The notes under the pieces: generated by a model | Databases searched by the model: none | What the model saw: only the letters and a program-made list of their open reading frames with translations | What the model was told of the DNA's origin: nothing | Source: Planctomycetota bacterium | GTDB taxonomy: Bacteria; Planctomycetota; J058 | Assembly (NCBI GenBank): GCA_016765095.1 | Contig: JAESQQ010000178.1 | Coordinates: 1 to 38,284, forward strand | Direction: 5' to 3' | DNA length: 38,284 nucleotides | Shown: in pieces, positions 4,188-24,840 of the stretch | Layout: each line of letters begins with the position of its first letter | Numbering within the stretch: position 1 is the stretch's first letter | Made by a program: the position numbers and the translations under genes

Positions 4188-6173
4188 CTAAAGCGACTTC
4201 AGGTACTCGATCAGGTCCATTCGCTCACGAGCCGAGAGCCCGCGCCCGATCACGCCGGGGCCGCGTGCGCCGTCGCGGAACTCGTGGCCCGCGTTCGAGT
4301 TTCCGATCTTGCTCGTGTCGAGCAGGAACGTCCCAGGAGCGTCGGGCAAGCTCTTGAGTCCGACTTTCTCCGCGTCAAAGACCTGCTTGGGGCCGAGGCG
4401 GAAGGTCGCCTTCCGCTCAGCCACGGGGCTCAAGAGCTCGTAGAGGTTGAGGACCGAGCCGTTGTGGAGGAAGGGACCCGTGGCCCAGACACCGTCGAGC
4501 GGACGAGCGCGATAGGCCAAGGGCGCGCGGTAGTCGTTGGGCCGACCCCCCGTGATCTCCCTCTCCTGGGCGGGCGTCAAGCGGAGCTCGGCGAACTGAC
4601 GGTTCATGACGCCGTCGGTGAAGGTCTTGAGCGCGTCGCCGCCCGAGATCACGCCTAGGTTCAAGCTGCCCGTGTCGACCTGCCGGAGGCTGAACAGGGT
4701 CGCCGCCATGGGGTCGGTGCCAATGTCTGAGAGTCCGTAGACCTTCACGTCGTAGTTGCGCACTCCGTAGGCGTCGGGGGCGGTCATCCCCAAGTCGTGG
4801 CAGCTGGCGCAGTTTTGGCGATAGAGCCGGCGACCGCGGCGCCACTGGCGAGCCTCTATGAACCCAGGCCACTTCGGCGCAGCGATCGCAGCGCGGGCCT
4901 TCTCGGCCTCGTGCAGCACGCGAATGTCTGCTCCGGTCTTATACAGGTCGGGGTCGGTCGGGGTGGTCACGATCGGGGTCGCGCCACTGGCCATGGCCGC
5001 AGCCAGGTTCCGCCCCAGGGGCTGAGTGATCGAGCCGTTGTATTGGACCCAGTTGAGCTTGGTGATTCCCCACATGTGAGGCAAGCGGACGGGACCGTTG
5101 GCGATCGTCAGGTTGCTGAGGGCCAAGCCGCCGAACAGGTTGTTGCCGCCTCCCGTCAGGGCGTCGAGGCGGCCGAAGCCCTCCTCGACTGCGGTGTCGA
5201 GGCCGAACGCCTTCGCGGCGTCGCTCTTGGCCTTGCCCGCTTGGAGCAAGCCACCGAGGTGTTGTCCGAGAGCGGCGGCCGCAGCGGGATCGTGGTTCGC
5301 GCCAAGCACCCGAGTCGCGAAGCGCTGGAACTTGGCCGGATCCATGGCCGTGGCTCCCATGGCCTGGCCGAGGGTCGTGCGGAACGAGCCGAGGTTGACG
5401 TTCGCGCGTCCGCCTTCAATCCGCAGGGGTTTGCCGTTGAACTCGACTTCAGCCGTGTGACAGGCCGCGCAGTTGAGGCCGACGGTCTTGACCTGCGTGA
5501 CCGGGTCGGTCTTGGTCGCGAAGCCGACGGGGAGCCGATCTGGGTTGGGGGCGCCGCTGGTGTCTGCGAGGAAGCCGAAGGCCGCCATTGAGTTCTCTCC
5601 GCTCAGCAGCTCCTGGCTGGTCGGGCGCTCGAGCGCCATGAACCAGGCGTAGGGGAGCGTCACGATCCCAATGTCGCTCCGGTGCCAGGCCGCTCGTTGG
5701 GCGGCGGTCCAGCCTGGATCGGGAGCGGTCGGATCCAAGGTTCCCGTGGCCGTGGCCACCGCGATCCTGCGATGCGAAGCGCGGAGGGTGACGGTTGCGG
5801 TGTCCTGCGTGACGACGATCTGCAGCTCCTGGCGGTGGGATCCCCGCACAGCCACTCGGGCGCGTCCGTTGCGAAGCCGACCCCGCCCGGTGAGTTGAGC
5901 GGTGGTTCCATCCGCGAAGGTCATTCGGAGCCTGAACCGGGCCATGCTGCTCGGGAGCCGGTAGCGCACTTGCAGCGAGCCTGTGAAGGAGCCGACCCGG
6001 GCGTAGGTTCCCGTGAGCACGTAGTTGACGGTTCGAGTGCTCGTCGACGTGCGGTGACGCTCTTGGGCGCTCCCGGCTGGCTCGTTCGCGAAGGCAGGGG
6101 CGGCGACCATAGCGGCCAGGCCGATCCCGAGGGCTAGAGTTTGGGCGGGGAGTCCTCTTGGGGCTCGCTTCAT
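4188..6173 (-). CDS. Exported di-heme c-type cytochrome (RoxA / cytochrome c peroxidase-like superfamily)
   Basis: A 661-residue exported heme protein. The start at ATG 6173 is fixed by GAGG five bases upstream and by a signal peptide (MKRAPRG..., cleavage near AFA-NE at 29-31); an upstream in-frame start would put 22 residues before it. Residues about 45-145 form a beta-rich domain with charged strands. Two heme-binding motifs follow: CAACH (235-239) and CASCH (455-459), about 220 residues apart, and the C-terminal part has the FLHNGSVLNLYELL segment common in di-heme peroxidase-like proteins. Size and heme spacing remind me of the rubber-oxygenase RoxA group rather than short CcpA/MauG enzymes, but oxygenase or peroxidase activity cannot be assigned. 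It is monocistronic, ended by the hairpin at 4135-4164, and divergent from cheB. Confidence 0.85.
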   Translation of the reverse strand: MKRAPRGLPAQTLALGIGLAAMVAAPAFANEPAGSAQERHRTSTSTRTVNYVLTGTYARVGSFTGSLQVRYRLPSSMARFRLRMTFADGTTAQLTGRGRLRNGRARVAVRGSHRQELQIVVTQDTATVTLRASHRRIAVATATGTLDPTAPDPGWTAAQRAAWHRSDIGIVTLPYAWFMALERPTSQELLSGENSMAAFGFLADTSGAPNPDRLPVGFATKTDPVTQVKTVGLNCAACHTAEVEFNGKPLRIEGGRANVNLGSFRTTLGQAMGATAMDPAKFQRFATRVLGANHDPAAAAALGQHLGGLLQAGKAKSDAAKAFGLDTAVEEGFGRLDALTGGGNNLFGGLALSNLTIANGPVRLPHMWGITKLNWVQYNGSITQPLGRNLAAAMASGATPIVTTPTDPDLYKTGADIRVLHEAEKARAAIAAPKWPGFIEARQWRRGRRLYRQNCASCHDLGMTAPDAYGVRNYDVKVYGLSDIGTDPMAATLFSLRQVDTGSLNLGVISGGDALKTFTDGVMNRQFAELRLTPAQEREITGGRPNDYRAPLAYRARPLDGVWATGPFLHNGSVLNLYELLSPVAERKATFRLGPKQVFDAEKVGLKSLPDAPGTFLLDTSKIGNSNAGHEFRDGARGPGVIGRGLSARERMDLIEYLKSL

Positions 6174-6287
6174 GAATTCCTCGACGTGTTTGGGGGTCAG
6201 CGCATGGCACGTCCGGCCTGCGCAGCATTCATGACGCACCGCGCAAAAAAACGGGCCGAGGGGTGGTTCTTCGTAACCTCATTTGTT

Positions 6288-6304
6288 TTGACGCACTGCG
6301 CCAA
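6288..6304. promoter_or_regulatory. Operator-like palindrome TTGACGC-N3-GCGCCAA
   Basis: TTGACGCACTGCGCCAA is a near-perfect inverted repeat (6 of 7 arm pairs). It matches the perfect palindrome at 23103-23119 in 15 of 17 positions. A weaker relative, ATGACGCACCGCGCAAA, sits 57 bp away at 6231-6247. The arrangement suggests a dimeric regulator acting on the cytochrome and/or cheB; no cognate regulator is seen in the window. Confidence 0.4.
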
Positions 6305-6339
6305 GATTGGCCCGGTTTGGACGACGGCGCGCCGGGTAG

Positions 6340-6357
6340 CTGAGAGAGATCTCTCAG
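6340..6357. promoter_or_regulatory. 18-bp palindrome, possible operator
   Basis: CTGAGAGAGATCTCTCAG has perfect 8-bp arms around a GA centre. It lies in the divergent region, 167 bp before the cytochrome start and 216 bp before cheB. Confidence 0.4.
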
Positions 6358-6527
6358 ATTCCGGGAATAGGGGACCTGTCGCCTGTTTGCGACGGTCGGA
6401 AACGCGGAGGGCGATCGCGGATCTCATAGGTGAGGAGGAAGGCAGGAGCACGACTGCAGGAGTGCTCGCCCGGCCACGCAAGAACACCGGACGCTCTCCC
6501 GTAGGTGTGCCTGACCCCTTCCGGGTC

Positions 6528-6533
6528 TACAAT
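6528..6533 (+). promoter_or_regulatory. Possible -10 element of cheB
   Basis: TACAAT matches the sigma-70 -10 consensus in five of six positions and lies 39 bp before the cheB ATG. No good -35 hexamer precedes it. Instead a small hairpin GACCC-cttcc-GGGTC (6513-6527) abuts it. Confidence 0.3.
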
Positions 6534-6572
6534 CGGTGTTTGTCAGGGTGCTTTCGGATTGATCGCGAGAAG

Positions 6573-7646
6573 ATGAGTTCGCCCCACCGAATCCTAGTCG
6601 TTGACGATTCGAGCGCGATGCGGCAGCTGCTCAAGCTCGCGCTCACCGACCTTCCGGATGTAGAGGTCGTGGGCACCGCGTCCAGCGGCGACCTCGCGTT
6701 GCGGCGAATCGAGTTTCTCCGCCCTGACTTGATCACGCTCGATATCGAGATGCCGGGGCTCGGGGGCTTGGAGACCCTGTCGCAGATCCGTGAGGATCAC
6801 CCCACCATCCGGGTTCTGATCGTCAGTAGCCTGACCAAGCGTGGCGCGCTCGTGACCCTCGACGCCCTCTCCCGCGGGGCAAGCGACTATGTGTCGAAGC
6901 CACAAGTCAGTTCGCCCGAGGAGGGAGTCCTGGCTTTGCGGAAGGAGCTCGTCCCTCGAATCCGCTCGCTCTGCGGCCCCTCCGAGGACCTACCTAGGCA
7001 CGTCGTGGAGCAGGCACGACGCACACCGACCGCCACCTGGAGGATCAGATCCCGACGCCCGGAGGTCATCGTCGTTGCCTCCTCCACGGGGGGGCCGCCG
7101 GCGCTAGGGAAGTTTCTGTCAGGGTTGCCCGAGAGTTTTCCGTGTCCGATCCTCGTCGTCCAGCACATGCCGAAGGTGTTCACGGGTCCCTTCGCCGAGC
7201 GCCTCAACAGTCAGATGCCGCTCCACGTGCGTGAGGCCGTGGCGGGGGCTAAGCCCCTCGCCGGTCAGGTCTGGATCGCCCCAGGCGACTCGCACCTCTT
7301 GCTCGAGCGTGGTGGCGACGGGCTACGGCTCGCGCTCAGCGACGCTCCACAGGTCAACTTCTGCCGACCTGCCGCCGATCTGCTCTTCGAGTCCTCTGCC
7401 GACGCCTGTCCGGGCCAAGTCCTAGGAGTTGTCCTGACCGGAATGGGGTGCGACGGCTCGGCCGGAGCCGCTCGCATTCGCGAAGACGGGGGACGAGTCC
7501 TCGTTCAAGACGAGGCAACCTCGGTGGTGTGGGGCATGCCCGGCAACGTAGCTCGCGCGGGTCACGCCAGCGAGATCCTGCCCCTCGAACGACTCGCGGC
7601 TCGCCTCGTCGAACTGGCCCCCCGCACCTGCTCCTTGGACACATAA
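6573..7646 (+). CDS. cheB: CheB, chemotaxis receptor glutamate methylesterase/deamidase
   Basis: Removes methyl groups from receptor glutamates and so adapts the chemosensory pathway. Its 357 residues comprise an N-terminal receiver with DD at 11-12, phospho-Asp57 in LDIEMP and Lys in VSKP, then a CheB methylesterase domain with the catalytic triad Ser171 (ASSTGG), His198 (VQHMP) and Asp294 (GMGCDG). ATG 6573 is chosen because the receiver begins directly after it; the frame is open far upstream, but that part is not protein-like and has no ribosome site. It is transcribed towards the rest of the che genes and stops 7 bp from the stop of the kinase-CheX gene, so it is controlled apart from the main operon. 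Confidence 0.95.
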   Translation: MSSPHRILVVDDSSAMRQLLKLALTDLPDVEVVGTASSGDLALRRIEFLRPDLITLDIEMPGLGGLETLSQIREDHPTIRVLIVSSLTKRGALVTLDALSRGASDYVSKPQVSSPEEGVLALRKELVPRIRSLCGPSEDLPRHVVEQARRTPTATWRIRSRRPEVIVVASSTGGPPALGKFLSGLPESFPCPILVVQHMPKVFTGPFAERLNSQMPLHVREAVAGAKPLAGQVWIAPGDSHLLLERGGDGLRLALSDAPQVNFCRPAADLLFESSADACPGQVLGVVLTGMGCDGSAGAARIREDGGRVLVQDEATSVVWGMPGNVARAGHASEILPLERLAARLVELAPRTCSLDT

Positions 7647-7653
7647 AGCTGGT

Positions 7654-9333
7654 CTAGGCAGGCAAGACCGCGAGGCCGATCAACTCGCTGCGCCAGCGAC
7701 CGCCTACCGCGATGAGCGCACCTTCGATAGCCTCGCCCCCAGGAACGAGGGGCAGCGACATTTCTGTGGGCTGGGGGAGAAGCTTCTTGAGCTGCCCCGC
7801 GACGATGTTTGCGATCTCCGCCACCGCGTCTTCAAGATCTTCTTGTTCCAGTTCAGAGGCGGCGAGGCCTAGGAAGGAAGCCCCCAGGCGCCGCGCGACC
7901 CCTTCGCTGCACTCGACCAGAATGCGTCCATTCCAGGCGCCCTCGAGGTCGATCGCGGCGCGAGTTGCGGCCTTGGGCCAGGCGTCAGGCATCGAGATCG
8001 GGTCCAGGTCCACTCCCAGCATGGTTCCTACCTCTTGCAAGATGCGGAACACCTCGGGGGGGGCCAAGCTGCGCAGGTGTGATCCAAGCCGCTGGTTTGC
8101 CGAGAGAGCGTGGAGGAGAGCCGCTGCGTTTCGATATCTTTGGTCGGCCTTCAAGTGAACGAGCCTTGCCAGCACGGCACCCAAGGCAGGGTCAAGCTCG
8201 GACGGGATCGGCGGAGATACGTCGCTAAGCCGTCTGATCAGCGCGATCCCGGTTAGCTCTCGGAAGGGGCGCTCGCCTGTGGCCGCAAAGAGGAGGGTCA
8301 CCCCCAGAGAGTAGAGGTCCGAGCGGTGATCCACCTTCCTCCCGAGCATGTATTCAGGAGCCATGTAGCCGGCCGAGCCACAGATCTCATGAGGACCCGT
8401 TAGCCCCTCGTAGCTCGGGTCGCGCGAGAGCCCAAAGCCGACCAGCACAGGCTGGCGAATGTCCCCCTCGCGGAGAATGACGTTTTGGGGGTTGAGGTCT
8501 CGGTGAACGATTTGGGCCGCGTGAATGTCGACGAGCGCGCGTGCGGCTCCTCCCAGAAACTGGATCAACTCTCGCTCCTCGAGAGGGCCGTGCTCGGCTA
8601 CGTATTCGGTCAAGGTAGGGCCCGGGACGTATTCGAGGGCAAGCCAAGAGTGTCGCCCCTGCTCACCGCAATCGCGGAGGCGCGCCACGTACGGCGAGCA
8701 GAGCGCAGACAAGCAGGCGACCTCGCCCTCAAAGCGCTTGCGCTGGTCGGGCGAGGGGGTCGGCACGACCTTGAGCGCCACTCGACGCTCGTGGGCTGGG
8801 TCCCAGCCTTCGAGCACCACTCCGTAGCCCCCACGTCCGATCACGCGCAGGACCTCGTATCCCCCCAGGGCTCGAGGCACGTTCCAACTCGCCGTCCCGA
8901 CCACCGGGTCGTGGGCGAGACCTTTCTGCCGAACACGCAGGGCGTGGAGACACCTCCCGACCAGCTCCTCGAGCGAGAAGGGTTTGGTCAGGCAGTCGCT
9001 CGCCCCCGCTTCTAGCGCTGCGACCACGTCTTCGCTCCTGTCCTGTGAGCAGAGGGCTACGATCGGGAACCGATCCGCGTCTTTCGAGGACTGTATGGAG
9101 CGGATCAGGTCTAGAGCCTCTGGGCTCGCCACGGCAACGACAGCAAGGGCGGGGGTCTCTCGCGCCAAGACGGCGCTCGCGCCCGCACAATCGTGGGCGC
9201 TGAGGACCAGCGCTCCACGCTTGCCGAGCGCGCGTCCGATCACGCGGCGAGCAGTCCGATCTCCGTCCATGACCAGCGCCCGCCAGCCCTTTGGCAGGAG
9301 GGTCGTGGCGGTCTCCTCCTTGGGAGGCGGCAC
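7654..9333 (-). CDS. Receiver-Ser/Thr protein kinase-CheX fusion protein
   Basis: A 559-residue three-part signalling protein. Residues 16-130 are receiver-like: MDGD (22-25) and Lys117 (TKPF) remain, but the phospho-acceptor position is hydrophobic (LAVVAVAS). Residues 158-410 are a protein kinase with GRGGYG loop, Lys188 (VALK), Glu204, HRDLNPQN (277-284) and APE, but GFG (299-301) replaces DFG, losing the Mg-binding Asp. Residues about 430-559 resemble the CheX/CheC phosphatase fold, with the expected E..N pair (Glu506, Asn509 in EIANIVAG). It is the last gene of the che operon, starting with GTG 6 bp after the receptor gene. I infer a scaffold or regulator that dephosphorylates a receiver through CheX; whether the kinase is active is open. 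Confidence 0.82.
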   Translation of the reverse strand: MPPPKEETATTLLPKGWRALVMDGDRTARRVIGRALGKRGALVLSAHDCAGASAVLARETPALAVVAVASPEALDLIRSIQSSKDADRFPIVALCSQDRSEDVVAALEAGASDCLTKPFSLEELVGRCLHALRVRQKGLAHDPVVGTASWNVPRALGGYEVLRVIGRGGYGVVLEGWDPAHERRVALKVVPTPSPDQRKRFEGEVACLSALCSPYVARLRDCGEQGRHSWLALEYVPGPTLTEYVAEHGPLEERELIQFLGGAARALVDIHAAQIVHRDLNPQNVILREGDIRQPVLVGFGLSRDPSYEGLTGPHEICGSAGYMAPEYMLGRKVDHRSDLYSLGVTLLFAATGERPFRELTGIALIRRLSDVSPPIPSELDPALGAVLARLVHLKADQRYRNAAALLHALSANQRLGSHLRSLAPPEVFRILQEVGTMLGVDLDPISMPDAWPKAATRAAIDLEGAWNGRILVECSEGVARRLGASFLGLAASELEQEDLEDAVAEIANIVAGQLKKLLPQPTEMSLPLVPGGEAIEGALIAVGGRWRSELIGLAVLPA

Positions 9334-9339
9334 GCCTTG

Positions 9340-11325
9340 CTATCTCTCGAGGACGGCGACGCTCGCTTCGTGCCCTTGCAGCCTTCCGACGAGCCCCTCA
9401 AGGCTCGACGCCAAGCCGGTGATGACCTCAGCTGCTTGGAGGGTCTCGTTGGCAGCGGTCGACGTGTTGCCCGCTGCGTTGGTCACTGCCTCGATCTTGG
9501 TCGCGATCTGGCCCGTTCCTTGGGCGGCTGCCCGAACACTGCGGGAGATCTCAGCAGTCGTGCTGCTTTGCTGTTCCACGGCCGTCGCGATCGCGGTTTG
9601 GAGGTCGGCGATCTTGTCAATCACCTCGGAGATCCCGGCGATCGCTTGCACGGCTTCCCGGGTGTCGCCCTGAATCGCCTCGATCTTGGAGCTGATGTCC
9701 TCGCTCGCGGTCGCGGTCTCCTTCGCCAACTCCTTGACCTCGTTGGCAACGACGGCGAAGCCCTTGCCTGCTTCGCCCGCACGAGCCGCCTCGATCGTGG
9801 CATTGAGTGCCAGGAGCTTGGTCTGCTGAGCGATCGAGGTAATGACCTTCATCACGTTCCCGATCTCGACGCCGCTTTGGCCGAGCCTCGCGATCGTGTC
9901 TTTGGTGAGCTGCGCCCCGTCAACGGCCTGGCCAGCCACGCTGGCCGCCGTGGTCGCGTTCTTGGCGATTTCCCGAATGCTCGCGTTGAGCTCCTCGGCA
10001 GCCGCCGCGACGGCTCGCACGCTGGAATCTACCTCCTGAGCAGCCGCCGCGACTTCTTGGCTCAGCTCTCGCGTCGAGGCAGCCTCCCCGCTCATTTGGC
10101 TGCCGATTCCCCCGAGCTGGTCACAGGACACGGTGATCTCGGCCGTGTTCTCAGTCAGCTCCTTGGCGACCTGGAGCATTGACTCACGCATCAAGACCTG
10201 CTCGGTCACGTCCTGAGCGAACTTGACGACCTTGAAGGGATTGCCGTCCAACCCCAGGATCGGGGTGTAGGTCGCCTGGATGTAGACTTTGTCACCCGAT
10301 CGATTGATCCGCGTGAATTCGCCTGAGCGGAACTCGCCCCGGTTCAAGGAGTCCCAAAACTCCCTGTATTTCGCGCTGCGGCGCGTCTCCTCGTCCACGA
10401 ACATGCTGTGGTGGCGCCCCTCGACGGCTGCCGCGCGGTAGCCGAGGACGTTCAAGAACAGGTCGTTGGCCTTCACGATCGTCCCGTCAAGCTTGAACTC
10501 GATCACGGCTTGGGACCGGTGGATTCCGTCTATTTGTCCCGCGAAGTCAACATTTCGGGTCTTCTCCGCCGTGATATCCGTGGCGTATTTGACGACCTTG
10601 ATCGGTCGACCCCGGAGGTCTCGAATCGGGGTGTAGGTCGCTTGGATCCACACGTCTCGACCGTCCTTGGAGACCCGGCAGAACTCGCCCTGCTGGTGCT
10701 CCCCGCGATTCAGCTTGGCCCAGAACTCCTTGTAGTCGGCGCCCCCATGGGCCCCGGCCTCGACGAAGAGCCGGTGGTGCTGCCCGACCACCTCTTCGCT
10801 CCGGTAGCCCAGCGTGTCCAAGAAGTTCTGGTTGGCCTGCAAGATCGTGCCGTCCATCGCGAACTCGATCACGGCTTGCGACCGGCTGATCGCCTCGATT
10901 TGCCCGGAGAAATTCATGGCGCGGGCCTTCTCCGCCGTGATATCCGTGGCGTATTTGACGACCTTCAAGAGGCGCCCCGTCTTTGCGTCACGAAGCGGCG
11001 TGTAGGTCGCCTGAATCCAAACGTCCTTCCCCCCCTTGCCGAGCCGACGGAACTCACCCTGCTGGTGATCGCCCCGATTCAGGCGATCCCAGAAGTCCGA
11101 ATACTCCGCGCTTCGCTGATACTCGTCTTCGACGAAGATCCGGTGATGCTTACCCAAGATTTCGGCGCTGGAGTAGCCCATGGCTTGCAAAAAGATGTCG
11201 TTCGCGCGCAAAATAGTCCCGTCAAGTGAGAACTCGATCACACCTTGAGTTCGCTCGATGGCGGCCTTAATGGCCTCCAGCTCTGCAACGTCCGCCTCGG
11301 ACTTACCCTTTCCTTGATCAGCCAT
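9340..11325 (-). CDS. Soluble methyl-accepting chemotaxis protein with three PAS domains
   Basis: A cytoplasmic chemoreceptor of 661 residues with no membrane segment. Three tandem PAS domains (about 25-133, 147-255 and 269-377) are near-copies at roughly 122-residue spacing, each with GTI(L/V)xAN...F, YxxFWxxLNRG and VWIQATYTP-like blocks and each closing with a DIT/DVT segment. A classical signalling domain follows (about 395-650) with hairpin tip [20 protein letters not shown]. It would control CheA from an internal cue such as redox state or a ligand; PAS resemblance to BdlA/Aer2-type receptors is from memory. It lies between cheR and the kinase-CheX gene and is probably their direct partner. 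Confidence 0.95.
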
Positions 11326-11397
11326 GTATCCGCACCTGCCGCCCAGCGGCTATCTGTAGAGTGATTTGGTTTTCTCGACGCCTGTGAGCGAGTCGAT

Positions 11398-12225
11398 TCA
11401 CTCGTCCAACACGTAGACCACGCTTCCGGCCACGTGTCGGGGGATCCACTGCGAGTCGAGGAGGAGTGTGGTCTCGGGGCTGCCGAGGAGGAGGAATCCG
11501 TCCGGACGCAGCGCCCGGCGCATTCGCTCGAGGACCCTGATCTTCTCTTCGATATCGAAGTAGATCAGGACGTTGCGGACCAAGATCACGTCGAAGAGGG
11601 GGGACGGAGGCCAAGGACCCAGCAGGTTGATCCGCTCGAAGCACACTCGCTCTCGATAAGAGGCCTTGAACTCGAACTCTCGCTCGTGGGAGTCGAAATA
11701 CTTCAGCAACAAGGCCCCAGGCAGGCCCCGGTTGACTTCGTACCGTGAATAGCGAGCGAGGCGGGCGCGGTCCAGCGCCTCCGTGGAGACGTCTGAGGCG
11801 AGCAACTCGACCTCCCAGCCTCCCAGCCGCTCCTTGAAGTGCTCTTCGAGCAGGAGGACCAAGCTGTAGGGTTCCTGCCCGTAGGAGCAAGCTGCTGACC
11901 AAATCCGGAGCGTGCGCTCGGACTGCCGGCGTTCGATCAGCTCGGGGATCAACTCCTCGCGGAGGGCCTGAAAGGGAGCCCAGTCGCGAAAGAACGAGGT
12001 CTCGTGGTTGAGGATCGACTCGACGACCTCCTCCTGCAGAGAGGGGTCGCCCATCGCTCGCGCGACCAACTCGTCGCCCGTCCCCGGGTGACGCTTGAGG
12101 AGATTCGTCAAGCGAAAGCCGACGTAGTGCTCCTTGTCCTCTCCGAGGCTGAAGCCGGTCGCCGCTTGGACCCAGTCCCGCACGACGCGGTAGCTCGCGG
12201 GGGAGATGTAAGGCACGTCTGTCAA
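11398..12225 (-). CDS. cheR: CheR, chemotaxis receptor methyltransferase
   Basis: Transfers methyl groups from S-adenosylmethionine to receptor glutamates. The 275 residues show an all-helical N-terminal domain, then the family blocks NHETSFFRD, WSAACSYGQEPYSL (SAM loop), LLASDVSTEAL and VRNVLIYFD. The start is uncertain: TTG at 12225 lies 9 bp after the upstream stop and gives MTDVPYISP; GTG at 12216 is nearly as good. Neither has a strong ribosome site. It is followed after 72 bp by the receptor gene. Confidence 0.94.
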   Translation of the reverse strand: MTDVPYISPASYRVVRDWVQAATGFSLGEDKEHYVGFRLTNLLKRHPGTGDELVARAMGDPSLQEEVVESILNHETSFFRDWAPFQALREELIPELIERRQSERTLRIWSAACSYGQEPYSLVLLLEEHFKERLGGWEVELLASDVSTEALDRARLARYSRYEVNRGLPGALLLKYFDSHEREFEFKASYRERVCFERINLLGPWPPSPLFDVILVRNVLIYFDIEEKIRVLERMRRALRPDGFLLLGSPETTLLLDSQWIPRHVAGSVVYVLDE

Positions 12226-12234
12226 CCGACGCGC

Positions 12235-12999
12235 TCAACTCGCCATGCCCAGCAGGCGTAGCTTCTCGACGATCGCCTGCTGATCGAAGGGCTTGAGGAT
12301 CACCTCGTCTGCGCCGGCTTCCAAGACCCGTCGAACCTGGTCCATATCGGTTTCGGAGGTCACGAGCACAATCGGCATTCGTGCCAGGGCCGGCTCCCGC
12401 CCTCGACACTCAATGACGAACTCTAGGCCGTTCATTTCGGGCATGTGGAGATCGACGAGCGCGACTCGGACAGGTTCGCTTGAAGCCTCGAGTTGGGCCA
12501 AGGCTTCCTTCCCGTGCACGGCCGTCTCGACGTCGTATCCAAGCGAAGACAGGATTCGGCTCAGGAGGCGACGCATGGCTCGCGAGTCGTCGATCACCAT
12601 CGCGCGACCGCGCGTGAGGGCTGGGCGCTCTATCAAGTGGCTGCGAACCTGACGCACCAATCGTACCGGGTCGAAGGGCGAGGCCTTGCGAATGAAGCCG
12701 TGCGCCCCGCAGTCTTCGACGAGCTTCTCGAGCGCTTCGGACTCAAGACCGGAGAAGAAAACAAGCTGGCACCCCGCCGCGAAATCGAAGCGCTGCAGAG
12801 TAGACACGATCTGCCCCCCACCAAGACCAGGCATCCCGACGTCCATGAGCACGAGGTCGGGGCACTCTTGCCGAAGCAGCGTCGCGGTCTCGATCGGGTT
12901 GGTGGTCGTCACGACTCGATAACCAGCGCGCTGGAGCGCGCTAGAGGCCAACTCCAGGACTGCTTTGCTGTCGTCGACGATCAGGATGGTGGCGGCCAT
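12235..12999 (-). CDS. Dual-receiver (REC-REC) response regulator
   Basis: A 254-residue protein made only of two receiver domains. The first (4-120) has DD, phospho-Asp in LVLMDVGMP and Lys in FIRKASP; the second (about 130-252) has DD, VALVDLHMP and ILKPF, so both look phosphorylatable. The ATG at 12999 overlaps the cheW stop (TAATG), implying translational coupling; the upstream extension of the frame is not protein-like. It is a paralogue of the REC-REC gene at 15721-16485, and the two flank cheA-cheW. With no single-domain CheY here, these are the likely phosphate acceptors of CheA, one perhaps acting as a phosphate sink. Confidence 0.92.
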   Translation of the reverse strand: MAATILIVDDSKAVLELASSALQRAGYRVVTTTNPIETATLLRQECPDLVLMDVGMPGLGGGQIVSTLQRFDFAAGCQLVFFSGLESEALEKLVEDCGAHGFIRKASPFDPVRLVRQVRSHLIERPALTRGRAMVIDDSRAMRRLLSRILSSLGYDVETAVHGKEALAQLEASSEPVRVALVDLHMPEMNGLEFVIECRGREPALARMPIVLVTSETDMDQVRRVLEAGADEVILKPFDQQAIVEKLRLLGMAS

Positions 13000-13463
13000 T
13001 AGGCGATTGCCCCTTCGACGGCAGCGGTCGCGAAGGCCCGCTCGATCAACCCGGAAGCGTCGAGTTCGACCAACAGGCGATGCTCGAGCTTGAAGACCGC
13101 AGAACACACCGAGCGCAGGTCCTCGCGGAGGGTCGCCGGAGGGTCCTCCCCAGCTGCGTCTACGACGCCGACGACGTCCCCGATGTCATCCACGAGCAGG
13201 CTGAATCCCTCCCCGCGCAGGACCAAATTCATAGGCGCTTGGCCTGGGGGTCCGGCCTTCATGCCTAGGATCGTCCGGAGGTCTAGGGCGGTCACGATCT
13301 GCCCGCGGAGATTGATCAGCCCCCGGACTGCGGTGGGAGCCAGGGGAATACGGGTCAAGGCTTGAGCCCGCAGGACCTCCTGGACGTCGGCCACTGGGAG
13401 CGCTAGGTAGAGGTCGTCTAGGGCAAAGGTACAGAGCTGTCGCTCGCTGGTGTCTTCGCTCAT
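12999..13463 (-). CDS. cheW: CheW coupling protein
   Basis: Bridges CheA to the chemoreceptor. Its 154 residues form a single CheW domain with FALDDLYLALPVADVQEV, IPLAPTAVRGLINLRGQIV and ALDLRTILG. The ATG at 13463 overlaps the cheA stop as ATGA and is preceded by GGAG at 7 bp, which decides this start over a TTG four codons upstream. It overlaps the next gene by one base. The receptor, CheA and CheW are thus made from one transcript. Confidence 0.95.
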   Translation of the reverse strand: MSEDTSERQLCTFALDDLYLALPVADVQEVLRAQALTRIPLAPTAVRGLINLRGQIVTALDLRTILGMKAGPPGQAPMNLVLRGEGFSLLVDDIGDVVGVVDAAGEDPPATLREDLRSVCSAVFKLEHRLLVELDASGLIERAFATAAVEGAIA

Positions 13464-15719
13464 GCGCCGCTCCAACTCAAGAGGGGTCGACTGTCCGCTT
13501 TGGCGAGGAGGATCTCGAGGTCGAGCACCTCTGCGATCTGGCCGTTGATAACGGCTGTTGAGCTGACTCCTGGACGCGTGCTGGGTCCCGAGTCGCAGGT
13601 GGACAAATCCGTAGAGACGATATCGGTGACTTCATCGACGACGACTCCCACCAGCTGCCCAGCAGACTCGTAGACCACCACACTCAGGGTGTCAACTTCA
13701 GCTATGGATCTCGGAGCCCGGGGCTGGCGGGTGCTGTAGCCCGAGGCCGCGAGATCGCTCTGGGACTCCGCAAAGAGCAGATCCTCAAGGAAGAGAAGGC
13801 GCAGGATCTGGCCGCGATACTGGACCAACATCCCTCCTCCGGCGAGTTCGACCTCATCACGTGAGAACTCCTCTAGGCGCGCGACCGATGAGAGTTGGAG
13901 GGCCAAGACCCCGCCCCCTCGCTCTCGGAGGAGCAGATAGGGTTGCTCATTGCTCGTGGCTTGAGCAACGCTGGCGCCGCGGCCCAGACCCTCAGAGCTA
14001 ATCACCGCGAGTTCGCAATGACGGCCAATGCCAGCCACGTCCAAGATCAAGGAGACGCGTCCGTCTCCAAGTACCGTCGCGCCCGCATAGAGGGAGAGAT
14101 GCCGAAGCTGGCGCCCGAGGGGTTTTACGACGATTTCCTCGGTGTCACCGATGTGTTCGACGATGAGGCCAAAGGAGCCGGCGTCGTGCTGAACCACGAC
14201 CACGTTGACCTCTTCGGTTCGGACGTGCTTCGAAGAGCCGAGCTGAAGCGCCCCTGCCAAGTCGACCAAGGGCAAAAGCACGTCTCGGAGCCGGTGGAAC
14301 GGCGCCTGATCAATGTACTCCACTTCTTCAGGCTTCAAGCACACCAACTCTTGGAGGTTGGCCTGCGGAATCGCGTAGCGCTCCTGCGCGCTCGTGACCA
14401 AGAGCGCCGGCACGATCGCCAAGGTCAACGGGATTCGCATTGCGAACGTCGTTCCTCGCCTCAGCGGCGAGTCGATCTCGATCGAGCCGCCGATCAACTC
14501 GATGTTGGTCTTGACGACATCCAGCCCGACTCCGCGTCCCGAGAGGTTGGTCACTCGGTTGGCGGTGGAGATCCCAGGCCTGAACGCAAGCTGGAGAAGC
14601 TCTCGATCGCTGAGGCGCTCGACCTGCGCACTCCCCAGGAACCCCGCCTCTACCGCCCGACGCGCGAGGGCTGCGGGGTCGATTCCGCGCCCGTCGTCGC
14701 TAACGACCACGTGCACGTAGCCGCCCTCATGAAACGCGCGCAGGCGCAAGGTCCCGTGCGCTGGCTTGCCTTGACTCCTCCGCTCTTCGGGTCGCTCCAA
14801 ACCGTGGTCAATCGCGTTGCGGATCAAGTGCACGAGCGGGTCGCCGATCGCCTGGAGTACGCTCCGGTCGAGTTCGGTGTCGTCGCCCTCGGTTTCGAAC
14901 ACGACCTCCTTCTGACAGGATTGAGCCACGTCCCGCACGTAGCGGGGCAGCTTGTTCCAGAGATGGCTGATCGGCTGCATGCGGGTCTTCATGACCTGCT
15001 CTTGCAGTTCGCTCGTGATGAAGCCTAGGCGCTGGCTGGCGGCCATCAGGATCGCGTCGTTGCGGGAGCTCGTCTCGCGTTGAAGTTGGTTGCGAACCAG
15101 GACCAACTCGCCGACGGTGTCCATCAAGCGGTCGAGGAGGTCGACGTCGAGGCGAACGGTCCTGTCTTCTCCGCCCAAGACGGTTTCGGGGCCAGTCTCC
15201 CCTCGCTCTGGTGGCTCTGGGTCCTCTAGGGGTGGGGTCAGCTCCGCCGCTGGCGCAGGGGGCTCGACCTCGACTGACGGCGCCGGAGGTGGATCCTCGA
15301 GGGGAGCTGCGGGAGCGCTCCTGGCAGACTTCGGTTCCGGGCAAAAGGCTGCGATTTCGGCACGCAGTTCGACGAAGTCCTCTTCTCCCTCGTCGCGGTC
15401 TGACTCGACTCGCCCAAGGACTGCGCGCACCGCGTCGGAGAGGGCCAGCAAGACGTTGATCTGCTCCGTCGTCGACTCCAGGCCTTCGTCGCGGATCGCG
15501 CACAGGAGGGACTCGCCGCAGTGCGCGAGACTCTCGAGGCGCGTATAGCCAGCCCAAGACCCCAGCTGTCCCCTTCAGGGTGTGCAGGACACGAAGCATG
15601 CCTCCCACCATGGAGACGTCGCTCGAGTCATTCTCGAACGCGATCAGGTCTAGGTCGAGACGCTGGAGGCCCTCATGACTCTCGGCCAGGAACTCTCGAA
15701 TGACCGGCTCCAGGTCCAC
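13460..15719 (-). CDS. cheA: CheA, chemotaxis histidine kinase, frameshifted in the HPt domain
   Basis: The kinase core of the pathway. Domains: histidine phosphotransfer (LRVLHTLKGTAG, about 15690-15480), Pro/Glu-rich linker, dimerisation helix pair (LLDRLMDTVGELVLVRNQL), ATPase with HLIRNAIDHGLE, VVSDDGRGID and GRGVGLDVV, then two tandem CheW-like domains. No P2 domain is evident. The frame breaks at a GGCT duplication (AGCCAGCC on the plus strand, 15547-15554): before it GVLG, after it YTRLESLAHCGES in another frame. Removing one 4-bp copy joins them smoothly and gives 751 residues. As written, the kinase core has no good independent start: the first candidate is TTG near 15451. GTG 15719, one base after the upstream stop, is the likely start. 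Either a real lesion or an assembly error. Confidence 0.88.
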
Positions 15720-15720
15720 G

Positions 15721-16485
15721 CTAGGCCCCCATAGCCCGGATGCGGTCAACGATCGTCGCCTTGTCCACCGGCTTGTTCAGGTAGCCACAAGCGCCCGCCG
15801 CGAGCACGGCTTGGATTCGCTTCGCATCGCGGACGGCGGTGACGAGCAACACAGGAATGTGCTGGAAGTCTGGCTGCTTGCGCATCGCCACGATCAACTC
15901 CAGCCCGTCCATTTCCGGCATCTCCAGGTCGACGATCGCGAACTGGGGCTTCTTCTCTCGCAGATGCTCCAGCGCTTCGCGCCCGTCTGCCGCGCAGGTG
16001 ACGTCGTAGCCTTGCTCACGAAGCATCAGCGCGAGCAAGATTCGGATCGCTCGGGAGTCGTCGACGACGAGGACGTCTGGCCGGACGGTGCTCGTGAGCG
16101 GAGCTAAGAGCAGGCGGCCGACGGCGGCCACCAGGGACTCTGGGCTCAGAGGCGCCGCCTTGTGAATGTAGCCGTGAGCTCCAACCGACTCCGCCCGGAT
16201 GGCTAGCTCGGCCTCGCTGACCGACGCTGAGAAGAGCACCATTCGGATCCCCTCGGTGGAGCCGAAGCGGTTCAGGGTTGCTACCACGTCTGTGCCTGAG
16301 ATCGCAGGCATTTGGATGTCCATCAGGACCATGTCGGGCGCCTCGGTGCGAACGAGGCCAGCGACTGCGATCGGATTGGTCGAGGTCACGACGCTGTAGC
16401 CCGCCTCTTCGAGGATCCCACCCGCAAACGCGAGGATCGCCTTGCTATCGTCGACGATGAGGATTTTCTCCCTGCTGCGGCTCAT
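15721..16485 (-). CDS. Dual-receiver (REC-REC) response regulator, first gene of the che operon
   Basis: Two receivers in 254 residues, closely similar in plan to the paralogue at 12235-12999. The first has VDDSKA, VLMDIQMP and IHKAAP; the second has VDDSRA, AIVDLEMPEMDG and LNKPV, so both phospho-Asp residues are kept. ATG 16485 follows GAGG at about 9 bp. It ends one base before the cheA GTG. There is no output domain, so it must act by protein contact, for instance on a motor, the kinase-CheX protein or CheA itself. Confidence 0.93.
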   Translation of the reverse strand: MSRSREKILIVDDSKAILAFAGGILEEAGYSVVTSTNPIAVAGLVRTEAPDMVLMDIQMPAISGTDVVATLNRFGSTEGIRMVLFSASVSEAELAIRAESVGAHGYIHKAAPLSPESLVAAVGRLLLAPLTSTVRPDVLVVDDSRAIRILLALMLREQGYDVTCAADGREALEHLREKKPQFAIVDLEMPEMDGLELIVAMRKQPDFQHIPVLLVTAVRDAKRIQAVLAAGACGYLNKPVDKATIVDRIRAMGA

Positions 16486-23233: not shown

Positions 23234-24116
23234 CTAGTCGAGGAACCGATTCAGCTGACGCTTGAGGACGTCTGGAATGAAGGTCTTCTGAAGGAAGCCC
23301 TTGGCGCCTACCTCCTTGGCGATCCTGCGCAGCTTGGAGGCGTCGTCGGCGGAAAACAGGACGATCGAGAGGTTGCTCGGTCCTTTGCTTGTCCTGAGCG
23401 GTCTGCAAGTAGGCAGCTGCGGCCTCTCGGGTCTTCTCGGCGAGCGCGACCTCGTCTTCCGTAAACGAACCGGACCGACCCAGCGCCAGGATCGCCACCA
23501 GAGTCCCCTGCCAACTGAGCGGAACGAAGAGGACCGACTCGAGCTCGACGACACCGATTCCGGTCTGGAGCTGAATCGGATCATCCGAGACCTTCCTCAG
23601 AGTGCACCGCTCGCTCCGAGCAGCCTCCCCGACCATCCCTTCGCCGAGCTCGAACCTATCGGGGAGCGAGGACTGGGGCGAGAGCGCGTGGCCGGCCTGG
23701 AGCGTCAGCACGCCGTCGCTCTGCACGTAGATCGCACCCAGCGTAGCTCAGAGGTCAGCGCCTGACCGATCGCGATCACGTGACGAGTGGCGACCTCGCC
23801 CGGGCGCAGGAGCGCGAACGCAATCGGCACAAAGCTGATCGCGCCGCCCAGGAGGATCGCCGCCCACACGTGAACGTGCGAGGTGGCCATGGGCCCGCTC
23901 CAGGTCTGCGGCGACACCCAGAGTGCGACCGCGATCCCCGCGATGAACTGAATCCCCATCAGGGCCGCGAACATGCGATCCGTCCGGGCGTGGAGCCGCT
24001 GAAGGTCGGTCTCGAAGATGAACTCTGCCCGTGTGTTAACTGTCACAGGAGCGGCCCCTTGGTCGAGCAAGAGGCGGTCGAGCAATCGCTGATTGACCCG
24101 CGGATCGAGCAGCCAT
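23234..24116 (-). pseudogene. Remnant of a membrane sensor kinase: membrane, GAF and receiver pieces
   Basis: Three fragments survive in order but not in one frame. (1) About 24080-23755: VTVNTRAEFIFETDLQRLH, then membrane segments (MGIQFIAGIAVALWV, HVWAAILLGGAISFVPIAFA) and ATRHVIAIGQALTS, the N-terminus of a known class of membrane hybrid kinases, cut where the GGRIETHFH region should follow. (2) About 23750-23400: a GAF domain (GAIYVQSDGVLTLQAGHAL, LFVPLSWQGTLVAILAL). (3) 23365-23234: the second half of a receiver (SIVLFSADDASKLRRIA, KGFLQKTF) without its phospho-Asp. HisKA and ATPase domains are gone. The likely original ATG at 24116 is also off-frame by one base. Large deletions make a sequencing error an insufficient explanation. 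Confidence 0.75.
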
Positions 24117-24703
24117 AAGTCGGCGCTGAGTCCAGGGCTGGGTCGCCGCCGCGCAGGAGGTCCAGGACCGCGTCACCCCTTCGTGTCCACGCGAAGCCGT
24201 GATTCCACCGCTGAAGCGAAGGGCCCCGGTCTCGTCGTAGCAGACTAGGTGCCCAGAGGTCCCGGCTCCGAATCGCCTCGCCTCGCCTCGACGCCGCCTG
24301 GGTCGGTCCGCAGCGTGACGCCCGGAATCCGCGCAGCCTGCTCCCAGAGGTCGCTGTGCGCCCAGGAGTCCGCCTCGGAGTCGGGCCGATAGAACACGGC
24401 TTCGACCGGAACCCTCCAGCCGGCTCGAGTCAGCAAACGAGCCAGCTCGCTGAGGGAAGCCCGAGTGCAGGGGCAGCGCGGGTGGGCGAAGAAGACGACG
24501 CGAATGCCAGTGTCGGGAGGAGGGAGGGCCGTCTCACGGCCCGGCCAAACGGTGGGCGCAGGAGTGGACTCGCCCTCGGTCGCCCCGTACTCAGCAAGCG
24601 CGATCATCCCCCCTGCGATCACTAGCAGCCAAACCGTCACAAGCGCGACAGATCCGGGTGTGCCAATGGACCGGGGGGGTGCAGGTTGGGTCGGTGGGGG
24701 CAT
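24109..24703 (-). pseudogene. RedB-like thioredoxin-fold membrane protein, frameshifted
   Basis: ATG 24703 starts a protein with one membrane segment (VALVTVWLLVIAGGMIALAEYG) and an exposed thioredoxin-like part with FFAHPRCPCTRASLSELARL, where CPC marks the redox site, and VEAVFYRPDSEADSWAHSDL. After GGVEARR the frame breaks at three copies of CGCCT (24274-24288); with two copies it would read on as FGAGTSGHLVCYDETGALRF and SGGITASRGHEG, as in RedB-like proteins. A second break near 24171-24181 precedes DAVLDLLRGGDPALDSAPTYGC. In other genomes I recall RedB being followed by a membrane kinase of the type in the previous entry, matching this order. RedB identity is by memory of family motifs. 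Confidence 0.7.
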
Positions 24704-24714
24704 TGAGATGGAGA

Positions 24715-24840
24715 TTAGCGAGGACGGTAGAGGGTCACCCCAGTTAGCGCGAAAGTACCAAGAATCGCCGAAGTCAAACCCAAGCCCGGTCGCCAGGCGA
24801 CAGGTATGGAGGCGGGGCCAAAGTGCCTCGGGGGGGGCCT
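24715..24840 (-). pseudogene. C-terminal fragment of a membrane protein
   Basis: The end of a minus-strand frame reads GLGLTSAILGTFALTGVTLYRPR, one membrane helix with a basic end, and stops 11 bp before the RedB-like ATG, as the last part of an upstream operon gene might. Nothing convincing lies before it, so it is probably a remnant. Confidence 0.3.

Follow-up and report, generated by a model that had tools for sequence, protein, structure and literature searches.

CheA histidine kinases nearly always carry their own phosphotransfer (Hpt, P1) domain, which is present in 98.3% of CheA sequences, with CheA3/CheA4 given as a unique case in the available text of that study (PMC10782961). In Rhodobacter sphaeroides, CheA4 is a P1-less kinase that phosphorylates CheA3 in trans, so that a split kinase works (PMC3591291, available text). 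Two other described systems resemble the locus reported here in the form of its lesion. At the lacI hotspot, CTGG units are gained and lost in a three-copy array (PMC3485313, available text). In the GeneTack catalogue, singleton frameshifts validated by BLASTp are expected, according to the part of the report available, to be sequencing errors and not genuine indels (PMC3711429).

The cheA gene analyzed in this study shares features with each of these systems. As in CheA3/CheA4, its kinase core has no usable P1 and would need one in trans; however, a search of its contig revealed no partner Hpt gene, and the break falls within P1 rather than between domains. Like lacI, it gained a 4-nt unit that breaks the frame (CTGG is a rotation of GGCT), but lacI had three copies before mutation, whereas the ancestor of this cheA probably had one. 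Like the GeneTack singletons, its frameshift has homology and Pfam support and is absent from the relatives examined; it was found without GeneTack, and choosing between an indel and an error is as difficult here as in that catalogue. We regard a recent loss-of-function indel, i.e., a real mutation of an ordinary kind rather than a genetic switch, as the probable explanation.

Organization of the chemosensory gene cluster

The window is the whole of contig C920 (38,284 bases), which belongs to a fragmented assembly (8.57 Mb; 987 contigs; 84% complete). Its che operon is encoded on the minus strand in the order REC-REC, cheA, cheW, REC-REC, cheR, PAS-MCP, and REC-kinase-CheX, with cheB convergent (Table 1). 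Apart from cheA, the genes have the expected domains in single open frames on Pfam searches, which bears out an earlier sequence-only reading that the rest of the operon is intact. The best non-self match listed for the REC-kinase-CheX fusion was 38% identical (14 genomes, the window's own included).

TABLE 1 Coordinates of the che operon and of the broken genes in the window
Feature	Position	Strand	Basis or remark
CheB, receiver and methylesterase, convergent	6141–7646	+	Pfam
Receiver-Ser/Thr kinase-CheX fusion, one protein	7654–9333	−	Pfam
Chemoreceptor, three PAS stretches and MCP signaling domain	9340–11325	−	Pfam
CheR methyltransferase	11398–12225	−	Expected domain
Protein with two receiver domains	12235–13107	−	Pfam
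CheW	12999–13475	−	Pfam
cheA remainder from YTRLESLAHCGES: Hpt end, linker, H-kinase_dim, HATPase_c, two CheW stretches	13460–15547	−	Pfam
GGCTGGCT, GGCT twice head to tail, frame break	15547–15554	−	+4 nt versus relatives
cheA 5' part, GTG start to LHTLKGTAGVLG, 56 codons, first Hpt half	15552–15719	−	Pfam Hpt, 28 bits
REC-REC, two response-regulator receiver domains, upstream of cheA	15721–16485	−	Pfam
Membrane histidine-kinase gene, reduced, ending in a REC fragment	23234–24085	−	Compared with G001 orthologue
Thioredoxin-like gene, broken	24040–24838	−	A single open frame spans the break in the orthologues of G001 and G006

A frame change inside the phosphotransfer domain

The cheA gene runs from a GTG at 15719, one base beyond the TAG codon that ends the upstream REC-REC gene, to a stop at 13460, and its frame changes at GGCTGGCT. 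On its plus strand, the window contains a single instance of the plus-strand form of this repeat, AGCCAGCC, at the very position where a GGCT duplication had been reported, and four instances of GGCTGGCT. The H-box LHTLKGTAGVLG lies in the first frame and YTRLESLAHCGES in the second, which is open to 13460 (703 aa, counting from 15571) and includes the kinase and CheW domains. Subtraction of 4 nt from the length of the gene leaves 752 codons with the stop (i.e., 751 aa), in agreement with the whole 751-codon gene that had been predicted to result from the removal of one copy.

Read across the break, the Hpt domain scored 51 bits against Pfam (profile positions 3 to 83 of 84); the left part alone scored 28 bits (positions 3 to 44 of 84), and the right part alone gave no Hpt match. 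The break therefore lies within the phosphotransfer domain, as the sequence-only reading had placed it, and P1 is complete only across both frames. H-kinase_dim, HATPase_c, and CheW are present in the order that characterizes CheA, and a whole Hpt in frame with the kinase is what this copy lacks. In phmmer comparisons with solved CheA chains, the kinase core of the second frame aligned (e.g., 1b3q, 3ja6, and 6s1k). Judged from its sequence, this cheA is a frameshifted gene: its two frames together match a single family from one end to the other, and it has more bases than its relatives. The third-position G+C content of the second frame is 0.75, within the range of the 16 genes measured (0.74 to 0.84), which suggests little decay since the break.

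Comparison with related CheA genes

The spacing from the H-box to the histidine of the next helix is 46 nt in the window cheA, as against 42 nt in every one of the 35 relative blocks, which are fixed 42-nt slices from 34 loci, each one ending in a His codon; the window copy thus has 4 nt extra. Loci with an H-box that were left out of this comparison are L001 and L034 (the window itself), L044, and L050 to L054, and a spurious minus-strand row of L021 was removed by the filter of the script. Four Hpt modules among the omitted loci (one in L050, one in L053, and both in L052) appear by eye to be four residues longer, in frame. A 4-nt tandem pair at the junction was found in 0 of the 35 blocks; two blocks have a tandem pair elsewhere, with a unit of 5 nt in one (L036) and of 4 nt in the other (L037). 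All 35 blocks read through in one frame, so that recoding is not conserved among them, which argues against programmed frameshifting as a way for the gene to function as it stands.

The CheAs of three other bacteria (G069/L035, G048/L036, and G014/L037) align at residues 6 to 685–690 of the 703-aa second frame with 46 to 47% identity; these proteins read through Hpt, whereas the window copy goes out of frame inside it. Across the 32 named loci, identity to the window CheA is 30 to 47%. The best-scoring match in the other 97 genomes is 47% identical, the highest identity listed is 49% (G006; residues 119 to 692, part of the protein), and the best match in G001, a member of the same genus, reaches 46%. 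None of these 97 genomes thus offers a close sibling orthologue for dating the break or comparing its copy number. The che operon (6141 to 16485) may be accessory, given that CheA identity is at most 49% among the matches listed from the 97 genomes, while the phosphatidylserine decarboxylase on the same contig (30802 to 31839) is 78 and 81% identical in the orthologues of G001 and G005.

Predicted consequences for the pathway

Translation from the GTG at 15719 would run through the first half of P1 and then out of frame as far as a stop codon at 14808–14810. The phospho-accepting histidine is retained in this first part. Since the second half of the P1 helix bundle is missing, autophosphorylation and phosphotransfer should be lost, and we would expect no phosphotransfer from the broken CheA. 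The first second-frame start codons past the break are TTG at 15451 and GTG at 15430, with Shine-Dalgarno matches of 4/6 and 2/6. A late restart at the TTG, whose ribosome site is weak, would at best yield a P1-less kinase.

Such a kinase might phosphorylate another Hpt protein in trans, as in R. sphaeroides (PMC3591291, available text), and Hpt, HATPase, and CheW matches are all present in each of two additional CheA-type proteins of the genome. One of them (on C634) is adjoined by MCP, CheB, and CheR genes; in the other (on C282), the CheW match is partial and the dimerization match falls just below the cut-off. However, there was no match to Hpt outside the broken cheA among the window open reading frames scanned or on the contig, and hence no separate Hpt gene of the same operon was found; in the available part of PMC10782961, CheA sequences that lack Hpt either lie at a contig end or have Hpt encoded by its own gene within the operon. 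With the poor restart sites and the single frame of the relatives also against it, a gene that functions as it stands, whether by programmed frameshifting or as a split CheA, seems very unlikely. The two other CheA-type proteins, having their own Hpt, make the loss of one CheA plausible.

Other lesions on the contig

The thioredoxin-like gene is broken by a gain of 5 nt inside an (AGGCG)x3 array, AGGCGAGGCGAGGCG, at about 24273 to 24277. Positions 172 and 173 of its G001 orthologue align to 24278 and 24272, with 5 nt between them; the G006 orthologue shows the same step at positions 164/165, and the alignment of G002 likewise resumes at 24272. By eye, a second frame change lies near 24175. The histidine-kinase gene adjoins this gene in the window, as in G001. 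Its alignment with the G001 orthologue extends to position 111 (23744) and resumes at position 268 (23702), with about 430 nt lost, and it has probably undergone a second, larger deletion as well. The REC fragment at its end matches profile positions 61 to 109 of 111 with 19.8 bits, below the cut-off.

These lesions bear on the possibility that the frameshift is an artefact of assembly or sequencing, or a rare strain allele chosen by the assembler, with GGCT present once and cheA intact in the living population. The fragmentation of the assembly speaks for this, as do the presence of a single lesion in an otherwise well-kept cheA and operon and the expectation that GeneTack singletons are errors. 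A loss of about 430 nt is no base-call error and points to real decay, although it could be a mis-join. A tandem gain of 4 nt differs from the usual error in calling a single base, and we count this against an artefact. Together with the deletion in its neighbor, the second gain of a tandem unit on the contig (+5 nt) favors a real lesion over a lone error, and we consider the artefact or minority allele possible yet rather unlikely.

Frequency of tandem pairs and of frame-breaking sites

Tandem pairs of 4 nt are common, with 214 in the window and 1 per 184 positions in 560 kb of sampled coding DNA from the genome. In this coding DNA, 3,022 pairs were seen at k=4 against a mean of 2,764 in synonymous shuffles, 958 against 700 at k=5, and 37 against 11 at k=8. 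The excess is clearer for the longer pairs (k=5 and k=8) than for k=4, and it indicates that such duplications do arise in this genome. A 4-nt pair alone is trivial and is notable only because it matches the frame break of cheA in place, length, and direction; we estimate the chance of a pair falling on the break at a few per cent, taking the rate of 1/184 over a junction of about 12 nt.

Prompted by the 5-nt lesion, we surveyed the 4-, 5-, 7-, and 8-nt tandem sites of 61 genome stretches (696 kb, including the window) by skipping one unit and scoring the coding gain against an equal number of random sites; sites within about 300 nt of the ends were left out. The cheA GGCT site had the largest gain of the 2,612 4-nt sites (11.9, with a frame-change penalty of 12 in the model), and the best of the 2,612 random sites gained 11.5. 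Gains of >4, >6, >8, and >10 were obtained at 23, 16, 12, and 6 tandem sites versus 22, 13, 8, and 4 random sites, respectively. For the longer units, gains of >8 numbered 7 versus 6 at k=5 (777 sites), 1 versus 0 at k=7 (53 sites), and 0 versus 0 at k=8 (25 sites). The site of the 5-nt lesion was absent from the best six k=5 sites. Thus, frame-breaking tandem pairs show no clear excess in the 696 kb, and the survey gives no indication of a switch system or of a systematic artefact.

The survey is relevant to the proposal that the repeat is phase variable, i.e., that GGCT slips from one copy to two and back and thereby turns the chemosensory kinase on and off. A two-copy 4-nt unit can revert, the remainder of cheA is open, and CTGG units do slip in the three-copy array of lacI (PMC3485313, available text). 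The GGCT repeat has two copies only, without a multicopy tract; no relative block has a 4-nt pair at the junction, and the cheA region is present once in the assembly. We therefore judge phase variation improbable. A minimal form, in which one-to-two-copy slippage of GGCT within the phosphotransfer domain lets a subpopulation silence one chemosensory pathway reversibly, is more improbable still. A switchable cheA was absent from the titles among the matches listed for cheA phase variation, cheA tetranucleotide repeats, and reversible tandem duplications, and a literature search for a 4-bp cheA duplication in experimental evolution found nothing. If the copy number varied within a clone, this would be an unusually small contingency switch.

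Of the three alternatives offered by the sequence-only reading (i.e., lesion, assembly error, and switchable repeat), the duplication lesion is tentatively favored over the assembly error, and the switch is the least likely. Under the favored loss-of-function indel, replication or repair would have duplicated GGCT in the P1-coding region of an ancestral cheA with one copy, shifting the frame after codon 56. The mutation would be real and recent, and the chemosensory system would be off. We suggest that this cheA be annotated as frameshifted and that, for this assembly, the cluster be taken as functional only after the reads have been checked.

Composition survey and additional genome features

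A composition-based survey for frame breaks outside the window gave 18 candidate transitions in 657.6 kb, many of which appear by eye to be gene overlaps or repeat regions. Within the window, it found cheA and the kinase/REC remnant and missed the thioredoxin-like gene. The same survey yielded 14 and 19 rows, respectively, in G001 and G005 (72% GC), which were mostly taken as gene junctions and do not serve as a control. Among five candidate broken pairs searched against Pfam, both halves matched one family in two (PhoX in L076 and a short-chain dehydrogenase in L090), and only one half was matched in the other three (L117, L120, and L128). The PhoX gene (L076:12365–14097, plus strand) lacks about 74 profile positions at the frame change and the short-chain dehydrogenase gene (L090:17102–17859, plus strand) about 18 to 22; both have the appearance of internal deletions. 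In a Ser/Thr kinase gene (L120:4775–6167, minus strand), CTGGCTGG lies near a +1 frame change that was detected by composition only, with no Pfam family match past the break.

PSD1 domains are typical of Planctomycetota; Pfam PSD1 was matched in this genome and in 0 of 14 control genomes, so that the bacterium probably belongs to this phylum. The genome also has two flagellin matches, on contig C743.
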